NCBI GenBank assembly: GCA_002682825.1
Contig: NOKP01000002.1
Span: forward strand, 5,128,309 to 5,192,308
DNA: 64,000 bases
Source of the DNA: Neonectria sp. B-13
Taxonomy: Eukaryota > Ascomycota > Sordariomycetes > Hypocreales > Nectriaceae
Direction of reading: 5' to 3'
Shown here in pieces: positions 1,681 to 64,000 of this stretch (positions within the stretch are counted from its first letter, which is position 1; every line of letters starts with the position of its first letter). Made by a program: the position numbers and the translations under genes. The notes beneath the pieces were generated by a model, which ran no database searches, was not told the DNA's origin, and saw only the letters and a list, made by a program, of their open reading frames with translations.

Positions 1681-4600
1681 GACCACGCCCGTAATCCCAT
1701 CCCGCCCTCCGTTCCCAGTCCTGGCTGGTGGCCTGACCCAGCGCCGCGGCGGCCCCAGCCATGGCTTGATTGGAGGCTCCATCGCACTGTATTCGTACAT
1801 GCATGTGCTGTTGCTTTTGCTTCCTATTATACTCATGAACAACGGGCGCAGTTGGTCATGTCCGATGGAGGCGTGCACCACACACAGTATGCGCTGCTGA
1901 CGGAACATGTTCCACGGTCCCAGCGAAGCATGGACGTATACAGTGCTGTTACAGTGAGTGTGCTTAGCAGTCTGGTACTAAGAAGGTTCTGATCTCCTGT
2001 TTGCTTCTTCGCTTGCCTTTCCAATTCTGGTATTCGTACATCCTCAGATCAGATCCTCCATCGGTTGCCGAAACGGCAATTATCCGCCCCATCAGTGAAT
2101 ATCAACAAACATGCTATCCTAGGTACGCAAATTCAGTTTACAACTAGGACGGCTACACAGGGTCTTTCATATTGACCCCTCTTACATGTTGATGAAGGAC
2201 CATGTACGTCAAGCCTCGGCGTCTCCAATTCAAGGCTGTGCAGGCATCAGTATCGCATTTTTCCTTTTTCCCCTTTCCATCGGTCATCTAGGACTCGATG
2301 CCCAACATGCAGGTACAGCACAGTGCATCTCAGATCGCCTTGCCTTCCAGATTCGCCCGTCGGCCCGGCCGGTTGTCTCGACAGGACAGTCTCTTCCGTC
2401 ATGACTTGGCTCTTGCACCGGATGTTACCACTTTCGCGAGCGGTCCGAGGAGCGACATGGTTCTTCGTAGCCATGGCTGATGTGTAATAGATGATGTGCA
2501 ACATATAATTACTCTGCATTCGTAGATCCTTCATAACGTTCACAACCGTTCACAACCTCAACGGCTGGTGACTCTACACAACATCATCCGTCACAGTGTC
2601 GGAGGCTACACTGGTGGCTTGAGTCGCTGTTTTATGGCATCATCCTGGCTCATCTTTCTCGTCCTCGTTCAGCCATGATCTTGCGGTTTGAGTCTTCCCT
2701 TTTTTCCCTTTCGTTCTTCAGTCATCTAAACAAAGGTTTCAACTAATCCCCTCTGAATTATCAACTCTCGGCCTGTTACATCCAGCAACCACCACGCAGA
2801 TATCCAGCTTTGCATTCCACTCACTGCATCATGTTCCTCCTCCTTCCAAGACATCTCCCGTCAAGCTGCCCCTGTAATCATCCGTCACCAAACTCGCACC
2901 GCGGGTATCCCCATCAATCGAGATTACAATGGCTTGTGCCACGTTGGCGCGCCTCCACGCTTCCGTCCCATCTCCATCCACTCGCGCCCCTGCAAACCAC
3001 AAACAGAGACTCAGACTCCCCGTCCAGGTGCCTCTTCTTTCCCAATCCCGAGCCCCGGCGTTAGTCAACCGTTCAGATTTCACCGGCACCGAGCTTGTCA
3101 TCGCGCGGACCGCCGCTGAAAGTCTTAACACCAGCAGATGTTGGCCTAGGTATGGGGTAGTGATCGTCCGTTCTAATCAGACCTTGCCCGCACAGTCCAC
3201 AGTACATGTTGAATCGGGCTATTTTTGGTCGTGACGGACCACTCGGATGAGCTGGTGGCTTTGATGCTCCGCTGCTGACCTGAAAAGTGGATGGAATACC
3301 GTCCCGTATTCCTCCAGCTATCTCTCTGCATAAGTAGGTCATTCTGTGATGTTGTGTACCTACATACTTGCGCACGTCTCCCCGGAGCAAGGCGCATCGA
3401 TACGACGAGTCGCTTACAGAGCACACAATAATTATACCCCAGGACCTTGGTATCGAAGCTATCGATTCTCGATGATCCACTGAGCTTGGCATTTGCACTG
3501 AACTATCATCAATGAAGCCCTTTTTCAGATCTTTCCACGCGTTCTCAATCTCCCTAGACTCCCCCCAATGGTGCTGTAAATAGCACACTCAGCATGCCAG
3601 TCATCCCTCCCACCGTTTCCCTCGTCACTGTCTCATTATTGTGGGGTGTTCCCCAGGGAATATCGGCTTTTCGATATCTCAAATCTTCGATCAAGGCAAG
3701 TATTGATTGATCAGGGACTTCCATATCCTGCAACTCTATTTGACCCCTACTCACTGGAAGCTCACCTTGTGGCTCGTGGTGATACTTTCGCGTGATCGCG
3801 TTCGCGCTTGCGTTGAGAGCCAACAAGCTCGCGCCCATCAAGCACATTTCGCGCATATCCCGTTTGCCGCCAGTCCTGGTTCTCTTATCGATGGTACTCA
3901 GACAATACTACGCGCTGTGCATTGTGAAGTTGGCTATAGCTTCCTAAACGAAGGCCGTCGTCTTAGCCTCGATGATATCGGCCCCGATCCCTTTCAACTT
4001 CGGAATATCTTGTAAAGTTTGTCCAGCTCAGATATCTCATGTGACCTGTTTCGGATACGGAAAGAACTCGTGGCATGAAATCGAATAGCAAGAGCCCAAC
4101 CCATTTGGATTCGGCATCTGCCACAATCCGTTGCCGTAAGGTCAAGTCCAGAATAATATCGCACGGGGCCTTCCTCGTAAGTCATTAACCAGCAGCTTCC
4201 TGGAAGCCCAAGAGCTTTGAGAACATGTCGCAATGTCCCGGCAGAGAAAATATGTGTTGTTGACGTGGCCGAGATGGCAATTGTACAAATGTCAACTGCT
4301 TCCGCCGTCCTTAACGTCAAGACATTTCGTGGTCACGGGATATCACTTAGGACTTGGACTGTAAATTGTACACAAAAACTCATCTCCGTTGCTGTTGCGC
4401 TCTCCAGTCCCCGGTACAGCAGTGAGGAAGCATGGGCTTAGCCGACGGTGTCATATAGTTGTCAGTATCAGGTGATGTGCGGTGCTCGGAATGAGCAGCC
4501 TGCACGAAGCATTTGACATTCTTACAGCTTCCTAGATTGCCAGTTCTCGGCCGAGTACGGGAAGAGAACCACAAGTTCGGGCGTGGAGATGTATAGAACA

Positions 4601-7234
4601 TATACGAGGGCCAGCACTAAACAAGGTGTAGCACCATGGGCGTCGTCGCCTTGGCTCACTCATCCCGGTCTATTCTTTCGTCCTTCCTATTTTATCACTT
4701 GAGCAGCTCCCTAGTGTCGTTGGACCTCGCTCATTCGGCCCCGATGAGATTCCCTGTGAACTATTGTTTCTGGACATTAGAGTGCCTCATTGGATGTCAA
4801 GCTCGACAAGAACGACGGAGTCCTCGTTGTCCACTGCCAGTGACTTTGGAGCTCAGAACGCAGTTGTGGGTGAAGAGAATACTTCCCATTCTCTACCAGG
4901 CGTATTGACGGCATTTGTAGCCAAGACCACGGAGTTAACGTACACTGGCAAGGTGATGTCGACCCTCCGTTCAGATGACGCTTGGTTGACTGCTGAATAG
5001 GGATCGTCTCCATCTAGCCAGCTTCGACTGAGCACCAACTAAAGCCTTGGTCAGTATCGCATGACTAGTACGGGCTCGTCAGGGCCGTGACTGGAAACTT
5101 CCCGGAAAAGGGGTCCTACAAACAATAACTAAAACGTGGATGGGTTTACGATGATTGAATAAACTAACATGCAGGGCATATCCAGATACGGCGGTTGATT
5201 AAAGGAGAGCACAACGTAAAGACTCTCTGTTATCTGGACTTGGTGTTCAGCCCGGTAGTTTGTGTCATCGTGTTGTGTGTGTTAAGATATCATATTGCTA
5301 CCCGTTAGCATTCTAACTACCAGCCTGGCGAGGAGGAACAGAAATCGTACCGGACACTTTTTCTTACGGGAGCGAACAACTATATCCCGCTTTCAGTGCT
5401 TTCACCCGGCTTCATCTTCCACGTGAGAATGTTCCATACCAGTGAGAGCATCTACAAGAAGTATCCTGGGGCAGGGAGAACGATAAGTCAAGTCATACTA
5501 TGTGCTATATGAGGAAAGTCCATGGTTCTTAAGTACAGCTTGGTGTATTTATGAATATTCTTCGCATAGCTCAGTCCTTGTTAGTAAAAACTTGTAAATG
5601 TCTCAGTCGGCAGGCTCGGTTGGTATGCGTGTTGATGCTGTGGTGATGGATGTGTCTTGCGCAACTGGACCTAGAGATTCAAAACACGGCGAATTGAAGT
5701 AGCATGAGACTTGAATAGTTCCAGTAAAGTACGAGACTGATTGAACGGGTCAGCATAATTGAGATTCGAAACTAATGAGACCATGTAAAATTATTGTTGA
5801 GCAACAATCATGAACTATTGGTTTTGTGGTACAGGGTAGTTCAGGTGGAAAAAACTTGAACGACTCGCAGAGCCATTACTCAATCATTTCGAGGGCTACT
5901 TTACCTCTTATAGTGGGAGACATGTTTCTTTATATTTATTGGTTCTTATTTGAGGATGCTTCATCAGACCTGATGGGTTTACTCCATACTGGTGGAATTA
6001 CTTGCGGGTTTGTTGCGGTGGATGATGCGTCCCCGCAGATTCACAACACCTTACGAGAAAAACATATACCATGTTCACGATGTTCGTTCAACACAGTTCA
6101 ATCCAGACGCAACATTATAATAGTATTCTTACACAAAAAGCAGAGGGGTTCTTGCGCTGATTGTTGTTGGCCACGCGTCGCCTAAAGACTTCACGTGTCT
6201 CAAAGGTACCTGGAAGCAGGGATAAGTCAAACCGAGAGAGTCGGTGTAGAATCGGAATGAATTGTCATGGATTTGTTTGTGCATCCATGCTCAACTTGGT
6301 AGAATATTATTGTAGTGGAATGGCCGCCCGTAATAGGTGACGTTTTAATTACTCCCTCCGTATACTCAGTGAAAGCTGTGGACATAAACCGGGAGCTCTA
6401 GACTCTAGCCTCGATCACGTATTAGCATTGCTGCCGTGTCTCGCGCCAGTCACAGAACGGGTGGACGGACCTGCATAAATTACATGCAACTAGTGTACAC
6501 ACAGACCGGGCGGTTGCCTAGAGCTTGTGAACAGCATTTATTACTACGGCGTAACTTGCGTACTGTATGAATACAGAGTCTGGTTGGAGTGTGATGATGT
6601 TGACAAGAAACAGGAAGTTAGTGTCTGCCAGATAACTGATTGAAGGATCATGGCGCCGTGACAACCCCAGCATAATGCAAGACTTCCAATGACGCATTGA
6701 CTGTTTGTGTTGTTGTTCCAAGTTGGATGCCCTGGGTCTCGGCCTTGGGGCTTGGCGAGATACCTCGGGCTAAATGGCATGCGAGTCCGGGTGACGAGAA
6801 GCAGAGCTCTTCAGATGCCTAAGGCGGCAAGGCGTGAGCCGTGATGGCCTGGTTGCTGGACCAGCGGCGAGAGTGGAGACTGGCAAGGCGAACATGGTGC
6901 GTCATTGCCTACGCTTGGTCACAAGGTGCCAGCCAAGAGCGAGTTGACAGGGGGCAGGAAGGATGGACCGGAGGCACCTGTGCCACCTAAGCACCGCCTG
7001 GGCAACCTGCGGATAAGCTGCGGAGTACCGATCAGGTCAGTCGTAGACTCAGAGCTTGGTTAGTCACCCACTCACAAGACGCAATCTGCTCCCCGGGCTT
7101 AGTTCCAGCGCTCCAGTTCCAGCGCTCCAACGCCAATATAGTGGGTAATCTGCGCATTGTGTAGCACAGCGCATACCTGCTAGGTACAAGCCGCCAGCCG
7201 TTGCCGATACTACTACCTAGGAAGACGCCCGAAA

Positions 7235-59861: not shown

Positions 59862-61904
59862 ATGGGCTTGTACACTAAGCTTGCCGATGATATCAATGAG
59901 GTGGATGTGATCATTGCCGGAGGTAAGGCTACACTTATTCTCAGCTGGAGGAAGCGCCATGGCTAATTCATCTTAGGTGGTACTGCAGCATGTGTTGTGG
60001 CTGGGCGATTGGCGGAGGCTGATCCCAAGTTGTCCATTCTGCTCATCGAGGGAGGGCAAAACAACTACGATGTACCAAACATCGTCCACCCTGTGTTCTT
60101 CCTGGACCACCTTCACCCCTCTGCCAAGACCACCATCTTCTACAAGGGTAACAAGGCCAAGCAGCTCGCCGACCGTGAGGTCATCGTTCCCTCTGGAGGC
60201 ACCCTGGGTGGTGGATCATCGATTAACTTCATGATGTACACCCGTGCCCAGCGATCCGACTTTGATTCATGGAAGGCGCGTGGCTGGTCTGCTGACGAGG
60301 TGCTGCCGTACCTCCGCAAGGTATGTTTGAACTATCCCTGTGTCTGACGCGCGTGGCCTGGTGTTGATCAAGAACCTCAATAGATGGAGACGTACCACGG
60401 CAAGGGATCAAAGGAGCTTCACGGCCAAGACGGCCCCCTCCATATCTCCGACAGCACATTCCGCGCACGTGGGTCCCAGGATGACTTCATCGACGCTGCA
60501 GGCAAGGTCGGCTGGCCCGAGATCCATGACCTGCAGGACCTGGACGCAAACAACGGCGTCGAGCGCTGGCAGCGTTACATCTCCACTGACGGCAAGAGGC
60601 AAGACACCGCGCACACGTACCTGCACGAGAAGCTCCGTGGCGGTGCCTACCCCAACTTGCACGTACTGGTCGAGTCACAGGTCGTGCGGGTTCTGTTGGA
60701 TGACGAGAAGCGAGCTGTCGGCGTCGAGTATACCCCTAACCCGGACTTCCAACCGTCCCTCAACACTTCAAAGCACCCCAAGGTGACAGTAAAGGCACGA
60801 AAGCAGGTCATCGTGTCTTGCGGTGCCCTCGGCACGCCGCCGGTGCTGGAGAGATCCGGCTTGGGTGACCCGGAGCTGTTGAAGAAGGTTGGCGTCGAGG
60901 TCGTCGTCGATCTTCCTGGTGTTGGACGCGATTATCAAGATCACAACTTGTGCCTCTACCCATACAGGACAAGCCTCAAGCCTCGCGAAACAATTGATTC
61001 AGTTCTGAGGAATCCGGGCAACCGCCAAGCGCTTATCGACAGCAAGGATGAGATCCTAGGCTGGAACTCTATCGATATCTCGTCCAAGCTTCGACCTACT
61101 GAAGAGGATGTGGCTGCCCTGGGTCCCGAGTTTAAGGAAGCTTGGGACCGGGATTTCAAGAACTCCCCCGACCGACCTCTGATGCTCATGGGCGTCGTTT
61201 CATGGTAAGTCCTTGGGATTCCTCATACCAAGCGCTTTCCAAGACAGTAATACTGACAGACAGACAGCTTCCTAGGAGACCCCTCAGCTGTCCCCGAGGG
61301 CCAGTACCTCACAGTAGGCAACTACACCGCATACCCTTATTCTCGCGGACACATGCACATCACTGGGCCTGAGCTGAGCGATCCCCTGGACTTCGATGTC
61401 GGCTACTTCACGGATAAGCATGATATCGACTTGAAGAAGCAGATCTGGGCTTACAAGAAGAACCGTGAGATCATGCGCCGCACGGCCATGTACCGTGGCG
61501 AGATTGCCGCCGGCCACCCAGCCTTCCCCGCTGGATCTGCGGCCGTGTGTGTCGAGACGGATGCTCCCCTCAGTGACATCAGTGATATTAAGTACACCAC
61601 CGAGGATGACAAGGCAATTGAGGAGTGGCTGCGCGGGAACATCGGCACGACCTGGCATTCGCTGGGTACCGCCAAGATGGCGCCCCGTGAGGAGTATGGT
61701 GTTGTAGACGAGTCGCTGAACGTTTGGGGCACCAAGGGGCTTAAGATCATCGATATGAGCATCCCGCCTGAGAATGTCGGCGCAAACACCAACAACACAG
61801 CTATCTTGGTGGGCGAGAAGGGAGCTGACATCCTGATCGAGGAGCTGGGTCTTAAGGTCAAGGAGCTAAGTTCTAAGATCGAAGAGCTGGCTCTTAAGAA
61901 GTAA
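59862..61904 (+). CDS. GMC-family flavoenzyme (alcohol/methanol oxidase-like)
   Basis: FAD-dependent alcohol oxidase-type enzyme. Four exons: 59862-59922, 59977-60320, 60384-61204 and 61268-61904; 620 aa. The first intron lies inside the FAD dinucleotide-binding motif, the join reading VIIAGGGTAACVVAGRLAE. The GMC signature GGTLGGGSSINFMMYTR is close to that of fungal alcohol oxidases. The catalytic His is in TWHSLGTAKM and the partner Asn in VGANTNNTAIL. C-terminus ELALKK has no clear SKL-type peroxisomal signal, whereas yeast methanol oxidase is peroxisomal. The substrate alcohol cannot be stated. Size is slightly below the 660 aa of methylotrophic yeast enzymes. Confidence 0.94.
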
Positions 61905-63180: not shown

Positions 63181-64000
63181 ATGTCAATGGCAGAACTACA
63201 GATTTCAAATGTGCGTCTGGTCGACGAGTACCTATCGAAAACAACATGGAAGGGCTCTGAGAATGCCAACTCGACCTACTCTCACCAGGGACTCATGCAG
63301 TACGTCTCCCAGCATGTCATTTCCGAATACTGGCTCCAGAAGATCTACACCGAGGAGATTCACAAGTTCAACAACGAGAACCGTTTTCACATCCATGATC
63401 TCGGTTTCTTGAGCGCGTACTGTTCGGGGTGGAGCCTTGAAGACATCCTCCTCCAAGGCTTTGGTGGTGTCGAGAACAAGATCCAGTGCCGACCGCCCAA
63501 GCACCTCAACACTGCCCTCAACCAGACGGTCAACTTCCTGTTCACCCTCCAAGGAGAGCTTGCTGGAGCCCAGGCACTATCGAACTTTGACACGTATCTC
63601 GCTCCTTTCATCCGAAACGATGATCTCTCATACTCTGATGTCTTCAAGTATGTGCAGAGCTTCGTCTATTCGCTCAACGTGCCCACACGGAGTGGCTTTC
63701 AGGCGCCTTTCACCAATGTTGCCTTGGACTTGATCTGTCCCAAAAACCTTCAATTCCAGCCTGTCATCATAGGTGGTGAGCCACACCCGACATGGATGTA
63801 CCGCGACTTCCAGGAGGAGATGGACCTGATCAACAGAGCCTTCGCCGAGGTCATGATTCAGGGCGACGGCAACGGCAACATCTTTTCTTTCCCCATCCCG
63901 ACCTACAACCTCTATGAAGGCATTGACTGGGAGTCACCTCGCTGGGAATCCATTTGGGAGATGACGGCTAAATATGGCGTGCCCTACTTCGCCAACTTCA
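63181..64000 (+). CDS. nrdD: Anaerobic (class III) ribonucleoside-triphosphate reductase, partial
   Basis: Glycyl-radical enzyme that makes dNTPs without oxygen. The frame is open from ATG 63181 (MSMAELQISNVRLVDE) to the window edge: 273 codons, no intron. Conserved NrdD blocks appear in order: NENRFHIHDLGFLSAYCSGW (residues 66-84, Cys81 likely the active-site Cys of the first loop), VYSLNVPTRSGFQAPFTNV (162-180), DFQEEMDLINRAFAEVMIQG (209-228), FSFPIPTYNL and EMTAKYGVPYFANF (260-273). No ATP-cone precedes the catalytic domain. Upstream the frame hits TGA near 63106 with no other ATG, so the start is reliable. The rest, including the glycyl-radical site, lies beyond the window. Class III enzymes are typical of anaerobes and rare in eukaryotes, so transfer from a prokaryote is likely; codon use appears fungal. 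Confidence 0.93.
   Translation, partial: MSMAELQISNVRLVDEYLSKTTWKGSENANSTYSHQGLMQYVSQHVISEYWLQKIYTEEIHKFNNENRFHIHDLGFLSAYCSGWSLEDILLQGFGGVENKIQCRPPKHLNTALNQTVNFLFTLQGELAGAQALSNFDTYLAPFIRNDDLSYSDVFKYVQSFVYSLNVPTRSGFQAPFTNVALDLICPKNLQFQPVIIGGEPHPTWMYRDFQEEMDLINRAFAEVMIQGDGNGNIFSFPIPTYNLYEGIDWESPRWESIWEMTAKYGVPYFANF

Follow-up and report, generated by a model that had tools for sequence, protein, structure and literature searches.

A fused NrdD-NrdG gene of class III ribonucleotide reductase type in the fungus Neonectria sp. B-13 and its relatives

The gene and its reading frame

The DNA described here is a stretch of 64,000 nucleotides from the ascomycete Neonectria sp. B-13 (the window; G000:C39:5128309-5192308). 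The genome comprises 60.9 Mb in 123 contigs, and contig C39, which carries the window, has a length of 6.28 Mb. At the end of the window lies the 5' part of a gene, nrdDG, that very probably encodes an intact, self-activating class III (anaerobic) ribonucleotide reductase (RNR), in which the reductase NrdD and its activase NrdG are fused. The gene is most likely of bacterial ancestry, fused once and then moved among eukaryotes.

The original prediction, made from the letters of the window, was based on the blocks HIHDLGFLSAYCSGW, NVPTRSGFQAPFTN, DFQEEMDLINRAF, FPIPTYN, and MTAKYGVPYF. All of them are within one open frame, which starts at GTG 63169 or ATG 63181 and is open to the window end. 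Beyond the window edge, the frame continues uninterrupted to a stop at C39:5193996, giving 2,508 nt from the ATG including the stop, and the product has 835 amino acids. There is no internal stop. The absence of introns, which had been noted over the 820 nt visible in the window, holds for the whole gene: it is a single stop-free frame of 835 codons. The features of the locus are listed in Table 1.

Table 1. Features of the nrdDG locus (positions in the window; residues of NrdDG counted from the ATG)
Feature	Position	Strand	Remarks
nrdDG, 5' part (820 nt, codons 1-273)	63181..64000	+	Remaining 1,688 nt outside the window; PF13597 at residues 27-589, PF04055 at residues 642-785
HIHDL, residues 70-74, region of the NTP-phosphate binding motif of NrdD	63388..63402	+	H72, D73, and L74 invariant in the 21-sequence alignment
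Cys81, at the alignment position of the conserved active-site cysteine on strand A of RNRs	63421..63423	+	Invariant in 21 and 75 sequences
GMC oxidoreductase gene (neighbor, not part of the system; 5' border provisional)	59997..61904	+	PF00732/PF05199
Candidate introns of the GMC gene, GT-AG	~60321-60383 and ~61205-61267	+	Borders read from sequence, candidate only

The reductase domain

The NrdD part matches the Pfam family NRDD (PF13597) with 592 bits, over the curated cut-off, and with an E value of 1.4e-177. The match covers profile positions 1-562 of 562. In NCBIfam, it matches TIGR02487 (NrdD) with 482 bits, over the cut-off, and PRK08270 (ribonucleoside triphosphate reductase) with 841 bits against a cut-off of 548. 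The identification as NrdD was thus borne out, and a match by chance is excluded.

The catalytic residues were compared in two alignments, one with 21 and one with 75 sequences. The roles of the HIHDL region, which concerns binding of the ribonucleoside triphosphate (NTP), and of the strand-A cysteine (Table 1) are those given in passages of the Thermotoga maritima structure paper (PMC4493059). The finger-loop motif MCCR (residues 286-289) is invariant in both alignments. The glycyl-radical site, which was to be sought beyond position 64000, is present in the C-terminal region of the NrdD part as RIVGY (residues 564-568): G567 is invariant in both alignments, and R564 and Y568 are kept in at least 90% of the 75 sequences. 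The zinc site consists of C539/H542 and C552/C555. All four residues are invariant in the 21 sequences; across the 75, C539 and C552 do not vary, and H542 and C555 are each kept in at least 90%.

Motif conservation was also followed in a protein search, considered for the best 120 of 8000 matches, in which P0001 is the nrdDG query and P0002-P0068 are the 67 closest matches. MCCR is present in 66 of these 68 proteins, RxxGY in 65, and the C-terminal CxxxCxxC in 60. The proteins that miss a motif include fragments, NrdD-only proteins, one insert-bearing protein, and P0040, P0047, and P0056; the last three nevertheless list the radical-SAM domain PF04055. It should be mentioned that P0066, an environmental fused NrdDG, has an in-frame insert of 156 residues (residues 283-438) in the finger loop. 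This insert opens with Cys and closes with THN ahead of Cys, in the manner of a mini-intein; neither Pfam nor the top 25 of 50 matches in NCBIfam gave an intein model for P0066.

The NrdD2 subtype has a third cysteine in the finger loop together with an active-site glutamate. In NrdDG, the finger loop has a double cysteine, and Glu438 aligns, as counted from the sequence alignment, with T. maritima residue 495. We take residue 495 to be the active-site glutamate of that enzyme. The T. maritima NrdD is the best PDB sequence match of NrdDG. The class III RNRs of T. maritima and Neisseria bacilliformis share the double cysteine with the present enzyme; however, they have SCCR in place of MCCR. 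According to PMC9669993, these two likely use thioredoxin only, whereas enzymes with MCCR appear to be equipped for formate or thioredoxin.

The AlphaFold model of NrdDG has a mean predicted local distance difference test score (pLDDT) of 88.1, and the low-confidence stretches are residues 595-603 in the linker and 298-309 shortly past the finger-loop motif. In the Foldseek ranking, the NrdD structures 8p2s, 4col, 4u3e, and 1h79 came first, followed by the pyruvate formate-lyase activase structures 8fo0, 3c8f, and 3cb8.

The fused activase domain

The C-terminal region of about 215 residues scores 149.3 bits with TIGR02495 (NrdG2) of NCBIfam, for which the cut-off is 131.15, and the Radical_SAM domain of Pfam lies in this region (Table 1). 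The cluster motif CxxxCxxC is formed by C647, C651, and C654. A short, flexible linker, approximately residues 590-620, connects this region with the NrdD part. Judged from these profile matches, the C-terminal domain belongs to the NrdG2 family of radical-SAM activases. A search for an activase with CxxxCxxC near nrdD had been suggested; it is indeed present, not as a neighboring gene but in the same polypeptide.

A profile search with PF13353 (Fer4_12) for a separate NrdG elsewhere in the genome gave no match. The genome search with PF04055 gave eight places, seven of them over the cut-off. One of the eight, C39:5193412-5193843, is the fused domain, and the remaining seven are further PF04055 matches. 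P0122 from Fusarium oxysporum f. sp. vasinfectum (256 amino acids) is an activase-only protein with 75% identity to the C-terminal domain of NrdDG, which suggests that the gene, or its gene model, is split in this strain.

Absence of the ATP-cone

Pfam found no ATP-cone (PF03477) in the NrdDG protein, and the match to PRK08270 begins at profile position 98. PF03477 is listed in none of the 67 closest matches, as opposed to 51 of the next 53 (P0069-P0121). Without the cone, dATP would not control the overall activity of NrdDG by way of this domain. The sole ATP-cone match found in the genome (C2:912963-913130) is located beside the class I R1. Apart from NrdDG, no RNR large subunit other than the class I one was found in the genome, which also has R2.

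The prokaryotic relatives were examined in the best 80 of 583 loci. At least 100 residues lie ahead of the NrdD match in 76 of the 80, a number that is an upper bound, being based on stop-to-stop frames. Among the other four loci, L035, L085, and L086 look truncated or masked. L042 (Aquificales) has no space for a cone, so that loss of the ATP-cone before the transfer is possible.

Distribution of the fused gene

Both domains are listed in 61 of the 67 closest matches. The closest, P0002, is 97% identical, and the nearest named relatives among the best 120 of 8000 matches, Ilyonectria and Dactylonectria, are 88% identical, in keeping with a host of the Nectriaceae. Nectria haematococca, a fungus known to carry the fused gene, presumably belongs to the Nectriaceae, as do these nearest relatives. 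The gene is found in at least 14 ascomycete genera: Ilyonectria, Dactylonectria, Mariannaea, Cosmosporella, Grosmannia, Fusarium, Clonostachys, Apiospora, Cirrosporium (a metagenome bin), Phaeoacremonium, Pleurostoma, Xylogone, Ascosphaera, and Brettanomyces. Further holders are an unnamed member of the Xylariaceae, Phytophthora, and one Pleurotus assembly. The classes spanned are Sordariomycetes, Leotiomycetes, Eurotiomycetes, Xylobotryomycetes, and Pichiomycetes, as taken from the taxonomy of twelve genera or species and the Xylariaceae, with Ilyonectria, Fusarium, and Pleurostoma set aside. The Pleurotus sequence (P0010, Pleurotus ostreatoroseus EIP86_001742, on a 484-kb contig) represents a basidiomycete assembly with a fused NrdDG 83% identical to the present one; it might reflect either a transfer or a contaminated assembly.

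The fused NrdDG was reported in Fusarium, Gibberella, Nectria, S. japonicus, and Phytophthora by Lundin et al. (2010; PMC3019208). Passages of that paper name five fungi, including N. haematococca, and three Phytophthora; place the eukaryotic sequences as one clan within bacteria; propose one bacterial transfer; and describe the fusion as 'restricted to two genera' of fungi. The class III RNR that the original prediction recognized in a filamentous fungus is therefore present and intact but not new for fungi, and the surprise is lessened because the fused kind has been in print since 2010. On its sequence, the present gene is a further member of this clan. It shares with the other members the NrdD and NrdG parts in one frame, the bacterial ancestry, and a position in one clan with Fusarium and Phytophthora, whereas the species and the locus are new. 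The distribution in ascomycetes is far wider than stated in 2010. No prior mention of this wider distribution, or of the conflict between orders described below, was met in the papers found by searches of the open-licence literature, most subscription journals being outside it.

In other sources, consulted as excerpts, the fused enzymes of some unicellular eukaryotes are regarded as of late origin (a 2015 review, PMC4390871), and the anaerobic gut fungi also have an NRDD domain (PMC6712302). The diplomonad Trepomonas has an NrdD-NrdG fusion as well (PMC4967989, in part), perhaps by a separate acquisition. A passage of PMC8520639 speaks of a 'Class-I' RNR for the anaerobic enzyme that S. japonicus acquired, where Lundin et al. 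have class III; this label is probably a slip.

Origin of the fusion

Prokaryotic nrdD-nrdG pairs (PRK08270/TIGR02487 with TIGR02495) agree with nrdDG in the two domains and in their order, the genes being usually adjacent, and their NrdD is up to 58% identical to the present NrdD part among the matches listed. However, they encode two proteins, usually with an N-terminal ATP-cone, whereas the present gene is fused and has no cone. In 77 of the 80 prokaryotic loci, nrdD and nrdG occupy frames of their own, mostly directly consecutive, and no nrdG frame was found in two (L044 and L085).

In the NrdD tree, the rows labeled as fused (46 of 94, 43 of them with both domains) are on one side of a branch with a support of 100 in the Shimodaira-Hasegawa-like approximate likelihood ratio test (SH-aLRT). 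The same holds for the NrdG tree, with 43 fused rows of 108 and a support of 96. In the joined tree of both domains, the fused proteins are split from 12 prokaryotes with 100/100 support. Since the fused proteins form one clan for NrdD and one for NrdG, one fusion event is sufficient, which agrees with the single bacterial transfer of Lundin et al. Of P0001-P0068, 46 of 68 proteins entered the NrdD tree, together with 12 of the 53 proteins P0069-P0121 and 36 prokaryotic loci (those of even number among the 80, without truncated ones); the 'fused' rows without a listed activase are P0054 (the 594-residue NrdD of S. japonicus), P0061, and P0064. The NrdG tree contained 43 fused proteins, 29 of 120 NrdG matches (every fourth from P0129), and 36 loci, L046 being omitted. 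The joined tree was built from 12 of the 80 loci and 32 eukaryotic or environmental proteins, and the long rows P0062, P0063, P0065, P0066, and P0068 were omitted.

A transfer from a prokaryote to a fungus had been proposed for this gene. The prokaryotic type of ancestry stands, but the transfer is not an event of this lineage, because many other fungi, and oomycetes too, carry the fused gene. The Phytophthora sequence clusters with unnamed environmental ones, and this clade is not nested in the fungi with support. The present trees speak neither for nor against the fungus-to-oomycete direction proposed in 2010.

Several donors or carriers were considered and rejected. An apparent nrdD-nrdG fusion in one stop-free frame at L046 (Anaeromyxobacter terrae, 2515-5481) was discounted because the glycyl-radical region cannot be read there; it is probably a frameshift, of the assembly or the gene, or a high-GC read-through. 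No convincing fusion was seen in the 80 best prokaryotic loci, and a prokaryotic fusion as the donor was dismissed. Viral relatives were none in the scan with a single protein and 191 with an alignment. In the best 80 of them, no fusion was found; 18 have both genes and 62 have NrdD only (frames of at least 60 amino acids). A Starship-type mobile element was rejected as the carrier: DUF3435, which we take to be of the Starship-captain type, has at least 15 matches in the genome, none of those listed being on C39. Three pairs of DUF3435 matches have equal scores and opposite strands (C72:970977-972029 and 1012345-1013397; C63:191087 and 231590; C50:794082 and 1029715). Two of the three pairs carry many stops, and the pairs look like inverted duplicated, decayed mobile elements.

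Transfer between fungi

The positions of three sequences in the gene tree are in conflict with taxonomy. Grosmannia (Ophiostomatales) sits beside the present nrdDG, Apiospora (Amphisphaeriales) sits beside Fusarium nematophilum, and the Xylariaceae sequence falls within the group of Fusarium and Clonostachys. The constraints were evaluated by the approximately unbiased test (p-AU) with 22 fungal proteins for all suspects and 25 for single suspects; they are taxonomic groups, and the tests were chosen after the first tree had been seen. Hypocreales as one clade was rejected with all suspects included (p-AU 2.3e-43) and with Grosmannia (1.6e-4), Apiospora (6.9e-4), or Xylariaceae (3.7e-4) as the single suspect. 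Fusarium as one clade was also rejected (1.5e-6). This conflict suggests transfer of nrdDG from fungus to fungus. The separation of Hypocreales from the P. ostreatoroseus copy was not rejected (0.229), and this copy was therefore not counted as a transfer.

Vertical descent from one ancient acquisition, with many losses and no transfer between fungi, is the best of the other explanations, although we consider it rather unlikely. The sparse presence of the gene would fit losses, Pezizomycotina as one clade was not rejected (p-AU 0.149), and hidden paralogy with losses, or mislabeled assemblies, could produce the conflict. It is opposed by the rejection of Hypocreales monophyly, which was obtained not only with all suspects together but also with each of the three alone.

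Transfer between fungi might be taken further. Tentatively, and a little short of an even chance, nrdDG may be a one-gene anoxia module that has travelled repeatedly between fungal orders, cone-free, self-activating, and perhaps able to use thioredoxin as well as formate; the copies of at least Grosmannia, Apiospora, and Xylariaceae would have come from within Hypocreales. The gene-tree conflict renders the transfer of a metabolic gene from fungus to fungus directly testable.

Proposed function

NrdDG would act as a single-chain, self-activating class III ribonucleoside-triphosphate reductase. Without oxygen, the activase domain would hold a [4Fe-4S] cluster on Cys647, Cys651, and Cys654 and cleave S-adenosylmethionine, so as to abstract a hydrogen from Gly567 of its own reductase domain or that of the dimer partner. 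The glycyl radical might then generate a thiyl radical at M286-C287-C288-R289 of the finger loop, and this thiyl radical would start reduction of the NTP to the dNTP, with formate or thioredoxin as the electron source. In air, the glycyl radical would be destroyed, and the class I enzyme would take over. The fused enzyme would thus permit DNA synthesis or repair in anoxic niches, and a capacity for dNTP synthesis under strict anoxia, as originally predicted, can reasonably be inferred. As for its history, an adjacent prokaryotic nrdD-nrdG pair seems to have been fused once and then moved among eukaryotes, including between fungal orders.

Some observations weigh against this model. The predicted template modeling score (pTM) of the AlphaFold model is 0.70, and the geometry between Gly567 and the cluster is hypothetical. 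The domain PF13353, listed for most NrdG matches, has no match in the fungus's own genome, although the fused activase is recognized by PF04055 and TIGR02495. The glycyl-radical domain of the pyruvate formate-lyase type (PF01228) has no match in the genome either; pyruvate formate-lyase is ruled out as the formate source on this ground, and the supply of formate is therefore uncertain. The NrdD and NrdG trees are quick ones that include the long rows P0065, P0066, and P0068, and their support values should be read cautiously.

The gene might be a relic, once transferred, no longer used, and retained by chance, as its patchy distribution and the presence of a class I RNR in the same fungus could indicate. 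This is improbable in view of 835 codons without a stop and of key NrdD residues that are kept from Pezizomycotina to Brettanomyces and Phytophthora. Still less probable is that NrdDG, though a glycyl-radical enzyme, acts on another substrate and is not an RNR. PF13597 by itself is no proof of the substrate, and no activity test of a fused enzyme turned up in the searches of the open-licence literature; however, the score on the PRK08270 model is far over its cut-off, and the HIHD region, the strand-A cysteine, and the finger-loop MCCR are all retained.

If the fused enzyme works in the proposed manner, it would explain DNA synthesis without oxygen in some filamentous fungi and provide a one-protein system for the study of glycyl-radical activation. 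The fused gene is widespread in ascomycetes, and the present locus adds an intact example of a eukaryotic oxygen-sensitive RNR deep in a large contig.

Genomic context

Bacterial contamination or a chimeric join of the assembly is very unlikely, the least probable of the explanations considered: nrdDG is prokaryotic in type, intronless, and known here from assembled sequence alone, but it lies at 5.19 Mb of the 6.28-Mb contig, 1.3 kb downstream of an intron-bearing GMC gene, and has orthologues of 83-88% identity in named fungi, whose contigs reach 7.4 Mb among the matches listed. Its codon usage is also host-like. In a comparison with eight host genes and a leave-one-out reference, the correlation of nrdDG with the host genes was 0.94, while each host gene gave 0.55-0.94 against the rest. 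For the nrdD frames of the 80 prokaryotic loci, the median was 0.54 and the highest value 0.915, with two of the 80 at 0.9 or more. The activase part has a lower correlation than the NrdD part (0.75 vs 0.94), a value inside the host range. Contig position, flanking gene, codon usage, and fungal orthologues together led to rejection of contamination and agree with the original prediction of a fungal gene.

The GMC oxidase gene that had been noted ahead of nrdDG is confirmed by its domain matches (Table 1). Its two candidate introns, as read from the sequence, would be a eukaryotic mark on the flank. Downstream of nrdDG are frames with NUDIX and glycosyltransferase-like domains. Elsewhere in the genome, two adjacent matches to the squalene-hopene-type cyclase domain were found on C61; this family, we assume, also covers lanosterol synthase.
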